62,241 nucleotides of DNA from Chloroflexota bacterium (GTDB lineage Bacteria > Chloroflexota > Dehalococcoidia > DSTF01 > JACRBR01): assembly GCA_028872875.1 (NCBI GenBank), contig JAGWOC010000010.1:1-62241 (forward strand), written 5' to 3'. Below, piece by piece: positions 8,062 to 38,689 of this stretch (positions are counted from its first letter, which is position 1; each line of letters begins with the position of its first letter). Below the pieces are notes generated by a model. It made no database searches. It was not told where the DNA came from and saw only the letters and a program-made list of their open reading frames with translations. The position numbers and the translations under genes were made by a program.

Positions 8062-9289
8062 TGCCGCCACCGGGCGCGACGGGCGCATTCGGGACCGGCG
8101 GATTGCCGGCCGGGGCCGTGGCCGCCGGCTGCGCGGCCGCGGTGCCTTGCGGCGCCGGGCTGGCGCCGGCGTGGGCGGTCGGATGCGGCGCCGGCGCGCT
8201 CGGGGCCGGCGCCGCCGCGGCGGTTGGCGTCGGCGGCGGCAGCGCCTTCAGGACCGAGATCAAGGCATCAGTTTGCGACGTCTGATCCCAGTGGTTGGTG
8301 ATGACCATCTTGGCCTGCATGTCGCTGAGCCACTTGCTGTACCGGCTGTTGACCTCGCCCGGCTTCTGCTGCGCCGTCAGGGGTTTGTCGGCGCGGTCGA
8401 CGAGGCGCACGACGTAGTACGTGGCAGCGCTCGACGAGCCCGCGGTGATGACGTCGCTGATCTGGCCGGGCTTCGCGGAGAAGGCGAATCCGCTGTACGC
8501 GGGGTTCATGTCGCCCTCGGTGGTGTAGTCGTGGAGGCCGCCCGTCGTCGCCTTGTTCGGCTCCGTCGAAACCTCCTTCGCGACCGTCGCCCAGTCCTGG
8601 CCGGCCTTGACGCGGAAGAGGGCCGCGTCCGCCGCTGCTTTCGTGGCGACCTGGATCACCTCGACCTTCGCTTGCGGTACGGTCGCCGGCAGCTCCTGCG
8701 TGATCTTCGCCCGGATCTTCCCCTCGATCATCTGGGCGAGCACCATGCGCCGGTACTCGTCCTCGTGGAGGCCCGAGCGCTGGAGGACGCCGCGGAACGC
8801 CGCGGCGAACTGCTGCAGGCTCGCATCCTTGGCGACGCCGATCTTCGTCCGCAGTTGGAGGTCGAAGTCGGCGGGCGAGATCTGGATGCCCTGGTCGCTC
8901 GGCCCGCGCGTCACGAGGACGATCTCGTCGAGCAGCTCCTGGTACACGGCCTGGGGAAGGCTGGCGAGGGCGGCCTGCGACTGGAGGTACGAGGGGTTCT
9001 GCTGCAGGTCGTACGCCATGCGGCGCTTCATCGCCAGGTAGCTGATCGAGATGCCGTCGGCCGCCAGCACCGTGCGATGGCGCGGCCGGATGACGGTGTA
9101 GTAGTAGCCGAATCCGATGAAGCCCGCGGCGATGAGGATGATCAGCGCCACGCCGCCCCAGAGCAGCAGCCGCGAGGCGCGGTCTGAGTCCAGCGCCACC
9201 ATGTCACGCAGGCCCGACCGCTTCCGGGGTAGCGGCCGCTTCGGTGGTGCCGGACGTGCGGGGCGGCCCCGCTTGCTCTCACTGCTCAT
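8051..9289 (-). CDS. Membrane-anchored parvulin-type peptidyl-prolyl isomerase (SurA/PrsA-like)
   Basis: This 412-residue protein has a basic, proline-rich N-terminus, one membrane helix at about residues 43-65 (LLLWGGVALIILIAAGFIGF) and an extracytoplasmic SurA-type N-domain. It then has a parvulin-like segment around 250-300, with GLHDYTTEGDMNP, FSAKPGQISDVI and YYVVRLVDR. The last 60 residues are an Ala/Pro tail. Such proteins help fold exported proteins at the outer face of the membrane. It is 63 bases after rpsR and overlaps hom, so it may be read with either group. The family is good; the enzyme's activity cannot be judged from sequence. Confidence 0.82.
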   Translation of the reverse strand: MSSESKRGRPARPAPPKRPLPRKRSGLRDMVALDSDRASRLLLWGGVALIILIAAGFIGFGYYYTVIRPRHRTVLAADGISISYLAMKRRMAYDLQQNPSYLQSQAALASLPQAVYQELLDEIVLVTRGPSDQGIQISPADFDLQLRTKIGVAKDASLQQFAAAFRGVLQRSGLHEDEYRRMVLAQMIEGKIRAKITQELPATVPQAKVEVIQVATKAAADAALFRVKAGQDWATVAKEVSTEPNKATTGGLHDYTTEGDMNPAYSGFAFSAKPGQISDVITAGSSSAATYYVVRLVDRADKPLTAQQKPGEVNSRYSKWLSDMQAKMVITNHWDQTSQTDALISVLKALPPPTPTAAAAPAPSAPAPHPTAHAGASPAPQGTAAAQPAATAPAGNPPVPNAPVAPGGGNGR

Positions 9290-9352
9290 CGTTCACCAAC
9301 CCGCCGCGGCCTCATCGGCGCGGGCTACGCGCACACGCTCCACTTGTCCGTC

Positions 9353-9754
9353 CTAGGTGCGGGCGGAGGAGGTGCTGCTCACCCGGATATGATCGGCGGT
9401 GTACGGGAGCAGCGCCAGATGGCGCGCCCGCTTGATCGCGATCGTCAACCGCCGCTGGTGGCGGGCGCAGTTGCCCGTCTTGCGGCGCGGTTCAATCTTT
9501 CCGCGATCGGAGATGAACCGGCGGAGCTTCATCGGTTCCTTGTAGTCAATGAAGTCGATCTTGTCCACGCAGAAGGCGCAGACCTTCTTGCGCTGCCCGA
9601 AGCGGCCCCGGCCGCCCCCTCCGCCGCGGCGGAACCCGCCCGCGGGTCGCTCCTCGGTCCGGCCGCCTTCGCTGGGCCGGGACGGCGCAGCCCCCGCGTT
9701 GGTGGGCGCCGCCGGAGCAGTCGGCTCGCTGCTCTCGCTCGTATCAGTCGTCAA
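9353..9754 (-). CDS. rpsR: 30S ribosomal protein bS18 with long N-terminal extension
   Basis: Residues 55-125 of this 133-residue protein are a standard bS18: [56 protein letters not shown]. The cysteine pattern (CAFC plus the later NC) is the zinc-binding type. bS18 is usually about 75-80 residues; here about 50 extra N-terminal residues are Ala/Pro/Ser-rich followed by a Gly/Arg stretch ([19 protein letters not shown]). It is the third gene of the conserved rpsF-ssb-rpsR operon. Confidence 0.95.
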
Positions 9755-9816
9755 TGTCCTGTGTCCTCCCTACCTCCGGGGCGGCGCATCGTGGATCCGC
9801 CGTCCCTCATCTTCGC

Positions 9817-10242
9817 TCATTCGAACGGCAGGTCGTCCGGGTCCACGTGGCCCGCTGCCCCGGCCGCTGCCGTATCGTCGAAGCTCTCGAGCCGCGCCGC
9901 CGAACCGCCGGGCGCGCCGCCGAGGAAGAGCACCGTCTGCGCGACGACCTCGGTCTTGTAGCGCTTCTGGCCGTCCGGCCCCTCCCACGACCGCGTGTGC
10001 AGGCGCCCTTCGACGTACGCCTGGCGGCCCTTCTGGAGGAACTGGCTGCACAGCTCGGCCAGCTTGGTCCATGTGACGATGTCGAACCAGTCCGTCTCTT
10101 CCCGCCGCTCGCCGTCCGCACCGGTGAACGTCCGGTTGCAGGCGAGCGAGAAGGTGGTGACCGCGCTGCCGTTGGCGGTGTACCGCATCTCGGGATCCTT
10201 CCCCACGTTGCCGATGAGCATGACCTTGTTCAAACCCGCCAT
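9817..10242 (-). CDS. ssb: Single-stranded DNA-binding protein
   Basis: This 141-residue OB-fold protein binds single-stranded DNA in replication and repair. It starts MAGLNKVMLIGNVGKDPEMR, continues with DWFDIVTWTKLAELCSQFL and YVEGRLHTRSW, and ends with the acidic tip DPDDLPFE, the tail that recruits partner proteins. The linker between core and tail is unusually short, about 25 residues. It lies between rpsF and rpsR as in most bacteria, and a GAGGGAG site precedes the ATG. Confidence 0.96.
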   Translation of the reverse strand: MAGLNKVMLIGNVGKDPEMRYTANGSAVTTFSLACNRTFTGADGERREETDWFDIVTWTKLAELCSQFLQKGRQAYVEGRLHTRSWEGPDGQKRYKTEVVAQTVLFLGGAPGGSAARLESFDDTAAAGAAGHVDPDDLPFE

Positions 10243-10285
10243 CTGAACTCCCTCTCGTCGTTACGCGGGTCCCCCGCCCGGGCGC

Positions 10286-10576
10286 TCAGTCTTCGTCCGT
10301 GCGGATCAGCAGATGCCGCACGATGTCGTCCGAGATCGCGAACCCACCCTCGAGCTCGTGGGTGCGGTCAGGATCGAGCCGCATCTGCGTCAGCACGTAG
10401 TTGCCCTCGGTGTAGCGGCCGATCGGGTAGGCCAGCTTGCGCCGCCCCCAGGGTGTCACCTCGACGACCTCGCCGCCGCGGCTTGTGACCGCCGACGTCA
10501 CGCGCTCGATGGCCGCCGGCACGTCTTCCTCCGCGATATCGGGGTTCATCACCACGACCAGTTCGTATTCGTGCAA
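10286..10576 (-). CDS. rpsF: 30S ribosomal protein bS6 (TTG start)
   Basis: The mature sequence HEYELVVVMNPDIAEEDV to LIRTDED is a normal-length bS6 of 96 residues, with GRRKLAYPIGRYTEGNYVL as the family core. I chose a TTG start at 10576 because GGGAGGTGA lies 5 bases before it (GGAGG-TGACC-TTG). The only in-frame ATG, at 10627, would add 17 residues unlike bS6 and has no ribosome site. It is the first gene of rpsF-ssb-rpsR, behind the promoter at 10689-10717. Confidence 0.93.
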   Translation of the reverse strand: MHEYELVVVMNPDIAEEDVPAAIERVTSAVTSRGGEVVEVTPWGRRKLAYPIGRYTEGNYVLTQMRLDPDRTHELEGGFAISDDIVRHLLIRTDED

Positions 10577-10688
10577 GGTCACCTCCCGACCCGGCGTCAA
10601 ATGAAATCGCCCGTGCCCTCCGGGCATCCGCTCGGAGGCCGGGCTCTCGAAGCTGCATCAACGCGGCCGAAGGTTCGACAGCGGAAGA

Positions 10689-10717
10689 AGTATAGGAATT
10701 GCCCCTCCGCAAGTCAA
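10689..10717 (-). promoter_or_regulatory. Sigma70-type promoter for rpsF-ssb-rpsR
   Basis: On the minus strand TTGACT (-35) is followed after exactly 17 bases by TATACT (-10). The -10 lies about 112 bases before the rpsF start. It is the best promoter match in the window, and it fits the strong expression expected of a ribosomal protein operon. The roughly 105-base leader could hold bS6:bS18-type feedback, but I cannot identify a structure. Confidence 0.75.
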
Positions 10718-10760
10718 CGCGTCCACGGGGCGGATTCCCGCCGGCCCTGCCCGGCCCCCG

Positions 10761-11432
10761 TTACGACGGCAGGACGTAGAAGGCGATGATCGAGAAGTGG
10801 ATCAGTCCGCCGGCGACGACGAGCAGGTGGAACACCTCGTGGTAGCCGAAGACGCGCGGGAACGGGTCCGGCCGCTGCGCACCGTAGACCAGCGCCCCGA
10901 CCGAGTACAGCACGCCGCCGGCGACGAGGAGGAGCAGCGGCGCCAGCGCGAGCGCCGAGGCAATCGGCGCCACCGCGACGACTGCCACCCAGCCGACGGC
11001 CAGGTAGAGGGATACGCTCAGCCAGCGCGGCGCCGACGGCCAGGCGATCTTGAGCAGCATGCCGGCGGCCGCGAGGCCCCACACCACGCTCAGGATCGAG
11101 ATGCCCCAGGCGTTGTTGAGGACGAGCAGGGAGAACGGCGTGTACGTGCCCGCGATCAGCGCGAAGATCATCGCGTGGTCGAGACGCTTGACGACGCCGC
11201 GAAGCGCGCGCGGCCACGGCGCCAGGTGGTAGCCGGCGCTGACGCCGTAGCAGGCGATCAGGCTCGCGCCAAAGACCGCCGCGGCGACGTAGGCGCGCGG
11301 CGAGCGCGCCAGCAGCAGCATGACGGCGAGCCCGAACGGCGCGGCTATCGCCGCCGCAAGGTGAAACGTGCCGCGCAGCAGCGGCTTCGGCGGCTCGACG
11401 GCGAGCGCGCCGGCCCGCGTCTCCCCGCTCAT
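10761..11432 (-). CDS. Hemolysin III / PAQR-type membrane protein
   Basis: The 223-residue protein has about seven hydrophobic segments. It carries the family histidines in SAGYHLAPWP (about residue 67) and GYHEVFHLLVVAGGLIHF near the C-terminus, plus RLDHAMIFALIAGTYTPF. These mark the YqfA/hemolysin III branch of PAQR proteins, putative metal-dependent membrane hydrolases; the hemolysin name is historical. The ATG at 11432 overlaps the stop of the preceding small gene (ATGA). It is the last gene of a run starting with a TetR regulator. Confidence 0.88.
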   Translation of the reverse strand: MSGETRAGALAVEPPKPLLRGTFHLAAAIAAPFGLAVMLLLARSPRAYVAAAVFGASLIACYGVSAGYHLAPWPRALRGVVKRLDHAMIFALIAGTYTPFSLLVLNNAWGISILSVVWGLAAAGMLLKIAWPSAPRWLSVSLYLAVGWVAVVAVAPIASALALAPLLLLVAGGVLYSVGALVYGAQRPDPFPRVFGYHEVFHLLVVAGGLIHFSIIAFYVLPS

Positions 11433-11779
11433 TGGCCGCCCTGCTTCTTCCCGGCCGTGCGCGTGCGCGGGATCGACTGCATCCATGCCTGCACGATGGC
11501 CTCCGGGCGCATGCCGAGCAGCGCATCGGACCAGGCGGCGTAGCGCCGTGCCGTGCCGCTGCCCATCCGCATCAGCTCGACCTGCGCCCGCAGCGATTCG
11601 GCGCGCGCGCCGAGGAACTCGCCCAGCGCGAGCATGGCGCGGCTCTCCTGCTTCCACACCTCCTGGTACTTCTCGACGAAGGCGATCATCTCGTCCGTGA
11701 CGTCGAGCAGGTCGCCGAAGCGCGGGATGGCGCTCAACGGCGACCGCGCGCGGGACTTGCGGGCGCGCTCCTCGGGCAT
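11429..11779 (-). CDS. Small helical protein of unknown function
   Basis: This 116-residue protein has a basic N-terminus, a central helical region at about residues 25-85 (EMIAFVEKYQEVWKQESRAM) and a basic C-terminus (RTRTAGKKQGGQ). It has no signal, membrane segment or known motif. The ATG at 11779 is chosen because GGAGGAG lies 6 bases before it; the upstream in-frame GTG would sit inside that site. It overlaps the hemolysin-III gene by 4 bases. The amphipathic, weakly acidic core is somewhat phasin-like, but I would not name it. Confidence 0.7.
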   Translation of the reverse strand: MPEERARKSRARSPLSAIPRFGDLLDVTDEMIAFVEKYQEVWKQESRAMLALGEFLGARAESLRAQVELMRMGSGTARRYAAWSDALLGMRPEAIVQAWMQSIPRTRTAGKKQGGQ

Positions 11780-35223: not shown

Positions 35224-35847
35224 TTATGGACGGAGACCCGCGGCCGCGCGGGGCGTGATCGCCGGGGCCGAGAGGATCTGGTCGACGATCCCGTACTCTT
35301 TCGCGTGCTCCGGGTCCATGAAGAAGTCGCGGTCGAAGTCGTGGCGGATGCGCTCCTCGGACTGGCCCGTGTGCTGCACCATGATGCCGCGCATCAGCTC
35401 GTTGAGGCGCAGGATCTCGCGCGCCTGGATCTCGATGTCCGTCGCTTGCCCGGTGATGCCGCCGCCGCCGATCAGCGCCTGGTGCACGTGGACCGTCGCG
35501 TGCGGCATGCAGTAGCGCTTGCCCTTCGCTCCCGCCGCCAGCAGCACCGTCGCCCAGCTCGCGGTGACGCCGACGGCGAACGTCGCGACATCGGCGTGCG
35601 CGAGCTGCATCGTGTCGTAGATCGCGAGGCCGGCCTCGATGCCGCCGCCCGGCGAGTGGATGTAGAGGTTGATGTCCTTTCCGGGGTCCTCCCGGTCGAG
35701 GTAGAGGACCTGCGCGATGATCAGGTTTGCCACCTGGTCATCGATCGGCGCGCCGAGGAAGACGACGCGCTCGCGCAGCAGCAGCGAGTAGATGTCGAAC
35801 GCGCGTTCGCCGCGCGGGCTCGTCTCGATGACCGAAGGGATGATCAT
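35224..35847 (-). CDS. clpP: ATP-dependent Clp protease proteolytic subunit
   Basis: The 207-residue serine protease forms the chamber of ClpXP/ClpAP. The nucleophile is the Ser in FAVGVTASWATVLLAAGAKG (the usual form is GQAASMGA, so the flanking residues differ), the His is in PHATVHVHQAL and the Asp in RDFFMDPEHAKEYGIVDQIL region. The triad is therefore intact. The sequence is divergent from housekeeping ClpP (GVTASWAT for GQAASMGA), suggesting a second paralog. It overlaps the LuxR-type gene by 4 bases (ATGA), and its GGAG site is inside that gene. Confidence 0.93.
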   Translation of the reverse strand: MIIPSVIETSPRGERAFDIYSLLLRERVVFLGAPIDDQVANLIIAQVLYLDREDPGKDINLYIHSPGGGIEAGLAIYDTMQLAHADVATFAVGVTASWATVLLAAGAKGKRYCMPHATVHVHQALIGGGGITGQATDIEIQAREILRLNELMRGIMVQHTGQSEERIRHDFDRDFFMDPEHAKEYGIVDQILSAPAITPRAAAGLRP

Positions 35848-36230
35848 GCCGCGCGCTCCCTCCAACCCGGCGCTGCCGCCGCGGCGCCGATGCGCTCGTG
35901 CCACCGTCCGCAGGCAGCGTGCCGCGCGCGGCGCCGCCAGCGCGCACGCCCGAGCCGCGTACGCGGCGCGGCGGGCCTCGTACTGGCGAGGCAGGCGCCC
36001 GGTGGGGCCGGGGCCGTTGCCGGCTCGCCCGGCCAGCCGGCGGCCTCCCGCCGGCTGCTGACGCCGAGCTTGGTCAGGATCTCCGACACGTGGAACTTCG
36101 CTCCGTCGGTGCTGATGCCGAGCCTGCGGCCGATCTGCTCGTTCGAGAGCCCCTCGCGCACAAGCTCCAGCACCTCCCACTGGCGGGGCGTCAGGACGTC
36201 CGGGTGGGGTGGGCGGCCACGTCGCGTCAC
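35844..36230 (-). CDS. Small LuxR-type helix-turn-helix regulator without receiver domain
   Basis: The 128-residue protein has a GerE/LuxR HTH at residues 8-70: DVLTPRQWEVLELVREGLSN, EQIGRRLGISTDGAKFHVSE, ILTKLGVSSRREAA. No receiver or ligand domain precedes it. The remainder is a basic Ala/Arg/Pro-rich tail. Start is GTG at 36230 without a clear ribosome site; longer in-frame extensions do not look like protein. It overlaps clpP by 4 bases and so is co-translated with the protease. It may regulate clpP, or be a ClpP substrate; both are inference. Confidence 0.7.
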   Translation of the reverse strand: MTRRGRPPHPDVLTPRQWEVLELVREGLSNEQIGRRLGISTDGAKFHVSEILTKLGVSSRREAAGWPGEPATAPAPPGACLASTRPAAPRTRLGRARWRRRARHAACGRWHERIGAAAAAPGWRERAA

Positions 36231-36425
36231 GGCATCAGGATACGCGCCCTGCGCTTGATTTACACTACCCGCCGGGCCCGCTCGCGGCGCCCGGAACGCT
36301 GCTGCGGGACTTCTGTCGGAGCGCCGAGCCTGTACCTGAAGCAGGTGGATTTCTGGGAGCCGACCGCGTATGCTTAGGCACTCACAAAGTAATTTTGGGC
36401 GCGTGGGCCCGAACGAGGAGGCAGC

Positions 36426-37502
36426 ATGGCCGTCAGTCCTGGCATTCTGCAGGAGCTTCGCAAGGAATCCGGGGGCGAGGACCTCGACCTCTCGTGGCTC
36501 GACCGGCCGCTCGCCGAGCGCGGCCTGCGCGTCGCTCCGGGGAAGCGGGGTCTGACGCTCGAGGACATCGCGACCTCGTCGTACGGCGCCATCCCGGCTT
36601 CGACGAGCAACCAGAGCGGGCGCATGCGCGGCGCCGCGCCGCGCTCCGACGCGCAGCACACGCAGATGATCTGGCCCTCGAAGGCGGCATCGTGGTCGGA
36701 GTCGGCGATGCTGCTCTACGAAGAGGCGGTGCAACGCCAGTGGAGCAGCGCCGTCGACGTGCCCTGGGCGGACCTTCCCGACCTGCCCGAGGAGATCGAG
36801 CTGGCGATGTCGCAGCTCTGCACGTTCCTCACGCAGGTCGAGTTCATCGCCGGTGACGTCCCGGGCAAGTATGCCCCGAACGTCAGCGGCGAGTACTTCG
36901 AGATCGGCCTCTTCCTCGCCAGCCAGATCATGGACGAGGCGCGCCACCTCGACGTCTTCCGCAAGCGCGCGCTGGCAAATGGCATCGGCCTGCTGCAGGC
37001 GGGCCCGGGCGCGATCGGCCTGCTGACGGCGCAGGATTTCACGGAGATGGCGTCGACCCTGCACCTCGTCGGTGAGGGCTTCGTGCAGTCGATGTTCCGG
37101 ATGGGCGAGATGTTCGCGCAGAGCGAGGTCGACAAGCGCATGTTCCGGCTGGCGGCGCAGGACGAGAGCCGCCACGTCGCGTTCGGCGTCATGCACATGA
37201 AGTACGTGATCGAGATGCAGCCGGAGCGGCGCGACGAGATCCACACCTACCTCGACCGCATGGAGGGGCAGCTCGGCACCGGCTCGGCGCAGGCGGGGCT
37301 CACCGGCGGCGGCCAGACGGGCGAGGCGCTGGCGATCCTGCTCGGCGGCGGCACGAGCGAGACGCAGCTCCGCGAGGGCTACCTGAAGCTGCTGGCGATC
37401 CGCAAGCGGCAGGTGAACGAGTATATGCACCGGCTCGAAGTCGTCGGCCTCGGCGACCGCCGCCAGCGGATGGCGCCGATGATGCAGGCGCTGTTGAACT
37501 AG
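36426..37502 (+). CDS. Diiron ferritin-like oxidase (R2/R2-like or AurF-like), full ligand set
   Basis: The 358-residue protein is a four-helix diiron protein. Ligands in order are Glu99 (LLYEEAVQRQW), Glu171 and His174 (MDEARHLDVFRK), Glu217 (LVGEGFVQ), and Glu247 and His250 (QDESRHVAFG). This is the E / ExxH / E / ExxH pattern of ribonucleotide-reductase R2-like oxidases and AurF-type N-oxygenases. There is no large RNR subunit nearby, so dNTP synthesis is unlikely. The ATG follows CGAGGAGGC. A paralog with two altered ligands follows 101 bases downstream. The natural substrate is unknown. Confidence 0.85.
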   Translation: MAVSPGILQELRKESGGEDLDLSWLDRPLAERGLRVAPGKRGLTLEDIATSSYGAIPASTSNQSGRMRGAAPRSDAQHTQMIWPSKAASWSESAMLLYEEAVQRQWSSAVDVPWADLPDLPEEIELAMSQLCTFLTQVEFIAGDVPGKYAPNVSGEYFEIGLFLASQIMDEARHLDVFRKRALANGIGLLQAGPGAIGLLTAQDFTEMASTLHLVGEGFVQSMFRMGEMFAQSEVDKRMFRLAAQDESRHVAFGVMHMKYVIEMQPERRDEIHTYLDRMEGQLGTGSAQAGLTGGGQTGEALAILLGGGTSETQLREGYLKLLAIRKRQVNEYMHRLEVVGLGDRRQRMAPMMQALLN

Positions 37503-37603
37503 GGCTGACAGAGAGGCCGAGGTCGGGAGCGGATGCCGGCGCAGGTTCATGCGCCCGGCTGGTCCGCCGGCGGCGCCGTTCACGATCGCGGAGGGGCAAC
37601 GAC

Positions 37604-38689
37604 ATGGCTGACAGTGAGACGCAGGGACAGCCGCAGGCAGCGCCCATCGCCCCGGAGATCCCCGGCATCCCGGCGCCGCCCGCGCTGGACATGAGCTGGG
37701 CGAGGGTGCCGACGGCGCGGCCGGCGAAGCCGACGATCGGCGCGGAGGGCTTCACGCTGAAGATGGCGGACGCCGGCGAGTACGCGTACGCGCCGGACCA
37801 CTGGCCGTACGAGAACGACACGCCGCGTGGCTCGTACCCGGCGAAGGACCGCGGGCTGCCGGCGCCGTACACGATCTACGAGAAGGCCGAGGTCTGGGCC
37901 GAGAACTGCGCCGACCTCTACGAGGCGGCGATCCGCGAGCAATGGAAGCCGGCGACCCAGGTGTCGTGGTCGTCCATCGAGCCGCTCCCCGACCACATCG
38001 AGGCGTCGCTCGACCAGATCTTCTCGAACATCTCCGAGCAGCAGTACAACTCGAACGCCGTGCTGATGGGGTGGCTCAAGGAGATCTCGTACGGTTATCA
38101 CGAGGTCAAGCTCTACCTGGCGACGCAGACGTTCGACCAGGCGCGCCACGTCGAGGCGTTCCGCAAGCGCGCGCTGGCGAACGGCGGCGGCCTCGGCGTG
38201 CAGGCGCCGGGCTTCCTCAGCCGTGCGGTGTTCGCCGCGTTCAAGTTCACCGAGCTGACGGTCTACGTGAACATCATCCGCACCGCGTTCCTGCTCGCGC
38301 TGTGCGAGCGCGGGGACGCGATCGGCCGCTCGCAGGCGGACCGCCAGCTCTTCGAGTTGACGGCGAACGACCTGCGGCGCCACCTGGCGTACGGCGTCGA
38401 GCACCTGCGGCACTACCTGCTGCAGGGCGACGATGCGAAGCGCCGCAACGTGCGCGCGTGGCTGGAGCGCGGCGAGATCATGCTGGCGGCGGACCTGCGC
38501 CGGGACAGGCCGCTGCGTGAGGCGCTGATTCTCGTGCTCGGCGGCAGTGTGCAGGCCGGCAAGACGGCGCTGCGTGAGCTGCGGCAGGCCCAGCTTCGCC
38601 GGTACCTGCGCGCGCTCGAATCGGCGACGTTCGTCGGCCACGAGCAGCACGTCAACCCGGCGCTCACGGAGATCATCGACAACCCGTAG
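37604..38689 (+). CDS. Paralog of the diiron oxidase with altered metal ligands
   Basis: The 361-residue protein aligns along the fold with its neighbour: LYEAAIREQW, FDQARHVEAFRKRALANG, KFTELTVYVN and NDLRRHLAYGVEHL match in order. Glu107, His182, Glu217 and His260 are kept, but the two ExxH glutamates are Gln179 and Leu257. A standard diiron site is therefore not expected; it may be a non-catalytic partner. It also has a 60-residue Pro-rich N-terminus absent from the first copy. The ATG follows GGAGGGG. The two genes are probably one transcript. Confidence 0.82.
   Translation: MADSETQGQPQAAPIAPEIPGIPAPPALDMSWARVPTARPAKPTIGAEGFTLKMADAGEYAYAPDHWPYENDTPRGSYPAKDRGLPAPYTIYEKAEVWAENCADLYEAAIREQWKPATQVSWSSIEPLPDHIEASLDQIFSNISEQQYNSNAVLMGWLKEISYGYHEVKLYLATQTFDQARHVEAFRKRALANGGGLGVQAPGFLSRAVFAAFKFTELTVYVNIIRTAFLLALCERGDAIGRSQADRQLFELTANDLRRHLAYGVEHLRHYLLQGDDAKRRNVRAWLERGEIMLAADLRRDRPLREALILVLGGSVQAGKTALRELRQAQLRRYLRALESATFVGHEQHVNPALTEIIDNP

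Follow-up and report, generated by a model that had tools for sequence, protein, structure and literature searches.

Gene Organization at the Locus

The window, meaning the whole stretch of 62,241 nucleotides analyzed here, is one contig among the 234 that make up a 3.4-Mb genome of the Dehalococcoidia (Chloroflexota). As an earlier sequence-only reading of this DNA had proposed, two complete open reading frames (ORFs) lie in tandem on the same strand of this window. Gene A (P1; positions 36426..37502, + strand) encodes a protein of 358 aa, which the ORF itself, its ligand residues, an AlphaFold2 (AF2) model, and VIA structure comparisons mark as a putative catalytic R2-fold dimetal subunit. 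Gene B (P2; 37604..38689, + strand) encodes a protein of 361 aa, which its ORF, a fused model, and its lost carboxylates mark as a putative metal-less partner subunit of the same fold. The two proteins are homologous (approximately 31–33% identity, E = 2.8e-42), and neither reaches the cut-off of any Pfam family. The host genome contains four A-type and two B-type genes.

A purine-rich, ribosome-binding-like stretch precedes the ATG of both genes; for B, this is the GGAGGGG motif within the 101-nt gap between the genes (37503..37603, + strand). A check of this gap revealed neither a promoter-like nor a terminator-like site. The genes that flank the pair on either side are all on the - strand. 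Those downstream of B are DegT-like and penicillin-binding-protein-like as judged from the ORF sequences, and those upstream of A are a LuxR-type HTH ORF and a ClpP-like gene (35224-35847). The LuxR-type ORF is small, starts with GTG (35844-36230, - strand), is divergent from A, and adjoins the ClpP-like gene. It is a possible regulator candidate, and no upstream neighbor of this kind is recurrent in the gene maps of the relatives. An antisense open frame of 579 aa (35844-37583, - strand) runs across gene A and is a typical shadow frame of high-G+C DNA.

Predicted Fold and Packing of the Two Proteins

The AF2 model of A (pLDDT 83.6, pTM 0.79) has the helix order of R2-like proteins. A Foldseek search with this model returned 27 matches at E ≤ 1e-3, nearly all of which are R2lox proteins; the search also gave R2 and the methane monooxygenase alpha subunit. 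In VIA comparisons, A matches solved R2-like proteins with Z scores of 19–23, the highest being that of VlmB/Protein 60 (6d9f, Z 23.1), followed by R2lox and the cyanobacterial aldehyde-deformylating oxygenase (ADO; both approximately 21) and methane monooxygenase alpha, which aligns over 268 residues (6vk4_A, Z 20.4). For the B half of the fused model described below, the Z scores are 20.0 with ADO and 19.6 with R2lox. These models suggest that both A and B have an R2-like fold. As far as sequence goes, the links between A and characterized enzymes are weak. The best profile match of A to a solved protein is again 6d9f (E = 7.7e-5, over a short stretch), and A scores just 38 bits with the NCBIfam model for R2lox, which has a cut-off of 194; the R2lox scores are weak in all 37 A members compared.

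Where A and B share a reading frame, as they do at some loci, reading the stop codons as glycine yields one A-linker-B chain. This fused chain was modeled for an ortholog (L077, genome G004) that is approximately 86% identical to the A and 72% identical to the B of the window. The model, a single covalent chain built from an alignment with 13 paired rows, has a mean pLDDT of 81.5 and a pTM of 0.84 over 778 residues, including a disordered linker of approximately 80 residues. Because two domains of equal size without a fixed orientation should score far lower, this pTM indirectly predicts a defined packing of A against B.

Metal Ligands of A and Their Counterparts in B

The putative metal site of A consists of Glu139, Glu171, His174, Glu217, Glu247, and His250, all of which are invariant among the 104 family members. 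They form the series E, ExxH, E, ExxH, with four carboxylates and two histidines distributed over four helices of the AF2 model (residues 122-152, 155-186, 205-225, and 234-264). In the DNA (all + strand), the codon for Glu139 is at 36840..36842, those for Glu171-x-x-His174 at 36936..36947, that for Glu217 at 37074..37076, and those for Glu247-x-x-His250 at 37164..37175. Four residues ahead of Glu217, His213 likewise never varies among the A proteins, is missing from most B proteins, and could be a seventh residue of the metal site.

The sequence-only reading had also counted six ligands and named five of these correctly, but it took Glu99 as the first ligand and omitted Glu139. We reject Glu99 in favor of Glu139 on grounds of helix position, alignment with ADO, and conservation. 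In the R2 fold, the first ligand is on the long helix immediately preceding the first ExxH helix; Glu139 is on the long helix 122-152, immediately ahead of the ExxH helix 155-186. Structural alignments with ADO begin at residue 118 of the A model, opposite residue 24 (4kvq) or residue 11 (4rc5). With these offsets, the first glutamate ligand of ADO, which we take to be Glu45 (4kvq) or Glu32 (4rc5), falls on residue 139 of A in both numberings. In a phmmer alignment of A with R2lox, Glu139 lands within one residue of the R2lox ligand Glu69, and the LYEEA motif that holds Glu99 pairs approximately 30 positions ahead of it. Glu139 is present in all 104 A proteins, but a glutamate occupies the aligned position in only three of 85 B proteins. 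By comparison, Glu99 is kept in 83 of the 85, which indicates that this residue is structural and independent of the loss of the metal site.

For B, the sequence-only reading had recognized that Gln179 and Leu257 replace the two ExxH glutamates, and had considered the other four ligands to be kept. However, four ligands are lost, not two. The positions of the four A carboxylates are occupied in the B of the window by Gln147 (38042..38044, replacing Glu139), Gln179 (Gln179-x-x-His182, 38138..38149, replacing Glu171-x-x-His174), Thr227 (38282..38284, replacing Glu217), and Leu257 (Leu257-x-x-His260, 38372..38383, replacing Glu247-x-x-His250; all + strand), such that only His182 and His260 are left over. 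Glu217 of B aligns with Glu207 of A, which is not a ligand. Of the 85 B proteins, those that have a glutamate where A has its four carboxylates number 3, 1, 0, and 0, respectively, whereas the two ligand histidines are kept in 48 and 67. None of them has the complete six-ligand pattern that is found in every A protein.

This loss stands out from the general divergence of B. Over the 72 columns that are invariant in A, B proteins keep 53% on average, compared with 4%, 1%, 0%, and 0% at the carboxylates. Only 12 of these columns are retained in 4% or less of the B proteins, and they include all four carboxylates (hypergeometric probability approximately 5e-4). As judged from the alignment, the carboxylate loss in B is not due to chance. 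Since all four carboxylates are gone, a dimetal site is not expected in B. The former metal site of B shows conserved, lineage-specific patterns, such as GAKKSH in 21 of the 85 proteins, and the invariant residues specific to B include Trp67, Tyr163, Gly164, and Gly198.

Distribution and Evolution of the Gene Pair

Loci were drawn from contigs of relatives and from named genomes; in the latter set, which comprises the best 80 of 317 matches, the relatives are Chloroflexota, mostly Dehalococcoidia. The search for the same tandem in other genomes found 71 distinct A-then-B tandems in Chloroflexota, nearly all of them in Dehalococcoidia. Two genomes of the phylum sample that belong to other classes (G278 and G293) also have the tandem. 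B is always downstream of A, with a median gap of approximately 73 nt; the negative gaps among the tandems are a product of mechanically assigned start sites. Such conservation, together with the defined domain placement in the fused model, agrees with the earlier proposal of an active subunit that is kept together with a metal-less sister. A search of plasmids returned only one distant ferritin-like protein, from Xenorhabdus.

Homologs of B do not occur mostly without A. After deduplication, 70 of the 85 B genes stand in tandem with A, and each of the remaining 15 shares its genome with an A gene. Solitary B genes belong mostly to one clade, present in 13 genomes (loci L010 and L205-L216); a non-tandem A gene accompanies them in 12 of these genomes, and this co-occurrence suggests pairing in trans. 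Another 29 genes are solitary A genes in which the ligand set is complete, so that A may function on its own in those clades at least. Two loci (L108 and L112) were scored as solitary by the script, yet overlapping B ORFs are present.

Midpoint rooting of the tree places A and B in two distinct clades (split supports 0.94 and 1.0), which points to an old duplication. The pairwise distances of A and B agree closely (r = 0.92, compared with a permutation maximum of 0.10), an agreement that is partly trivial given that the genes are linked. The mean distance is larger for B than for A (0.59 vs. 0.43), which makes B the faster-diverging member of the pair. At a distant outgroup locus (L222), the first gene of a tandem (9131-10309) is A-like and has the complete set of six ligands; its partner gene (10248-11573) has Q, Y, H, N, T, and H at the six ligand positions. 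This partner joins the outgroup in the tree (group support 0.91, 0.50 inside) and not the B clade. Its placement suggests, but is no proof, that it lost its ligands independently; metal-less partners may thus have originated a second time.

Gene neighborhoods vary. Apart from A and B themselves, just one partner recurs in diverged lineages, namely an orphan protein of approximately 147 aa that is encoded directly 3' of B at 16 loci. The 16 loci include the solitary B of the host genome (L010:9752-10195, contig C222). The orphan family has no Pfam match above the cut-off and no solved relative in the PDB. By eye, it resembles SCP2-type sterol carriers. However, Pfam gave such a match for one member only (E = 0.18), and an hhalign comparison with a small SCP2 set, several rows of which were poorly extracted, was negative, such that this identity is unproven. 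In one lineage (L188, L181, L192, L193, L098, and L187), CopC and CopC/CopD/cytochrome-c genes are upstream of the A-B pair, and an alpha/beta hydrolase gene is downstream.

Comparison with Known Systems

VlmB and Protein 60 of Kitasatospora setae (8wvr, 6d9f) share the R2-like fold and the ExxH motifs with A, although the identity is only approximately 18%. We know of no metal-less tandem partner for these proteins, and no valanimycin pathway genes were seen in the mapped A-B neighborhoods. R2lox likewise shares the fold and the spacing of the six ligands, but it is encoded by a single gene, whereas A and B form a pair. Moreover, the Tyr-Val cross-link of R2lox has no counterpart in A. Ala142 (104 of 104 proteins) and Met, Leu, or Val at position 212 occupy the positions that correspond to V72 and Y162 of Geobacillus R2lox, as counted from the ligands. 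On this basis, and considering the low NCBIfam score, membership of A in the R2lox family was rejected. R2lox proteins bind a fatty acid, and one of them has been reported to oxidize alkanes (PMC6060897, PMC10867098). The core helical bundle of ADO resembles that of A, and its first ligand maps to Glu139. However, ADO is only approximately 220 aa long, lacks the N-terminal part of A, and has no partner subunit of the same fold.

Two systems share the division into a metal-bearing and a metal-less member. In bacterial multicomponent monooxygenases (BMMs), a metal-bearing R2-fold subunit is combined with a metal-less paralogous partner, a trait that the A-B pair has in B, in tandem with A. This likeness is one of shared architecture and is not proof of a common origin. 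BMM alpha subunits are approximately 500 aa long, match PF02332, and work with a reductase and a coupling protein, none of which was seen for A and B. The class Ia R2 proteins Rnr2 and Rnr4 of yeast also resemble the pair in being paralogs that form a beta-beta' dimer, with Rnr4 lacking the residues needed for the diiron center (PMC3824934). They differ in being subunits of a eukaryotic ribonucleotide reductase with R1 as a partner, and arose through a duplication unrelated to that of A and B.

Proposed Function and Alternative Explanations

Our main reading, to which we assign a probability of approximately 0.6, is that A and B form a heteromeric, O2-using R2-fold dimetal oxidase or oxygenase in which A is catalytic and B is a pseudo-subunit. 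A would bind two metal ions, presumably Fe/Fe or Mn/Fe, through its six ligands, activate O2, and oxidize a substrate that is probably hydrophobic. The guess of a hydrophobic substrate is based solely on the binding of fatty chains by the fold neighbors R2lox and ADO. Electrons would come from a generic redox partner encoded elsewhere, which is favored by the lack of a recurrent reductase or coupling gene; no gene for an electron donor or a substrate was identified. B, as a duplicate of A that has probably lost its metal site, would pack against A, stabilize it, and shape the access of the substrate or the electron donor, thus acting as a structural and regulatory pseudo-subunit in an oligomer.

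Alternatively, B may be only a chaperone for assembly or stability, possibly with a role in metal loading, in which case A would be complete as a homodimer and the solitary A proteins would be the same enzyme. The full ligand set of the 29 solitary A genes is consistent with this, and a chaperone role has been suggested for Rnr4 (PMC3824934). However, B dates back to the A-B split and has been passed on together with A even where the pairs have diverged strongly (A distances up to approximately 0.5), the fused model has a confident packing, and the co-occurrence of solitary A and B genes fits pairs re-formed in trans. We thus consider a chaperone-only role to be unlikely. It is more doubtful still that B has a separate function, with a pocket that binds a ligand or cofactor through lysines or other residues and with A and B acting in sequence. 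Although the lineage-specific site patterns and the B-specific invariant residues could be explained in this way, the constant gene order, close spacing, and confident domain packing favor a complex.

The sequence-only reading had compared the pair with BMM alpha and beta subunits. The architectural part of this comparison holds, and the alignment of A with methane monooxygenase alpha adds to it, but family membership does not hold, as PF02332 matches none of 37 A and 36 B proteins (E ≤ 0.01). Neither PF02332 nor PF02406 was matched in 20 genomes, though no control genome gave a match to either model. Furthermore, VlmB-type and R2lox folds match A equally well or better, and no reductase- or MmoB-like gene was seen to recur among the neighbors scanned at the 103 mapped loci. 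A divergent BMM with its reductase and coupling protein encoded elsewhere is therefore very improbable. Least credible of all is that A is the small subunit (R2) of a ribonucleotide reductase, even though A has the R2 fold and 12 of 37 A members have a weak match to PF00268 (best E = 1.3e-4). The reductase of the host belongs to the B12-dependent class II (NF005122, 1421 bits vs. a cut-off of 859), and no protein of this genome matches PF00268, which excludes A as the R2 of the host. The presence of four A genes in one genome also argues against this role, as does the residue at the position of the radical Tyr of R2, which is Phe178 in every one of the 104 A proteins, although class Ic R2 proteins have a Phe at this position as well.

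We regard A and B as a family of their own, with a pseudo-subunit, within the superfamily of R2-like dimetal carboxylate proteins. Tentatively, the pair may stand for an undescribed class of heteromeric O2-activating enzymes that combine an R2-fold catalytic subunit with a metal-less twin, and that originated in Chloroflexota separately from the methane-monooxygenase type and from Rnr2/Rnr4. Given the degenerate tandem partner at L222, such a class may have arisen twice, and the orphan protein of approximately 147 aa may be a third subunit in one branch. We found no description of this or a similar bacterial pair in the literature covered, with subscription journals mostly outside it. Published surveys of SAR202 emphasize flavin monooxygenases, dioxygenases, and enolases, and diiron or ferritin-like proteins go unmentioned in the full texts consulted. 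Some of the most difficult oxidations in living cells are the work of R2-fold dimetal carboxylate enzymes. The A-B family is outside Pfam, and aerobic Dehalococcoidia, cultivable Tepidiforma isolates among them, have more than one copy of it per genome, several in all. The pair thus offers a candidate for a new oxidase or oxygenase, and its metal-less twin allows the contribution of a pseudo-subunit to be tested cleanly. Among 148 relatives, heme-copper oxidase subunit I (PF00115) is present in all 45 carriers of the family and in 57 of 103 non-carriers (Fisher p = 1e-9, with genomes counted regardless of phylogeny). Its presence in all carriers is in line with an O2-dependent enzyme.
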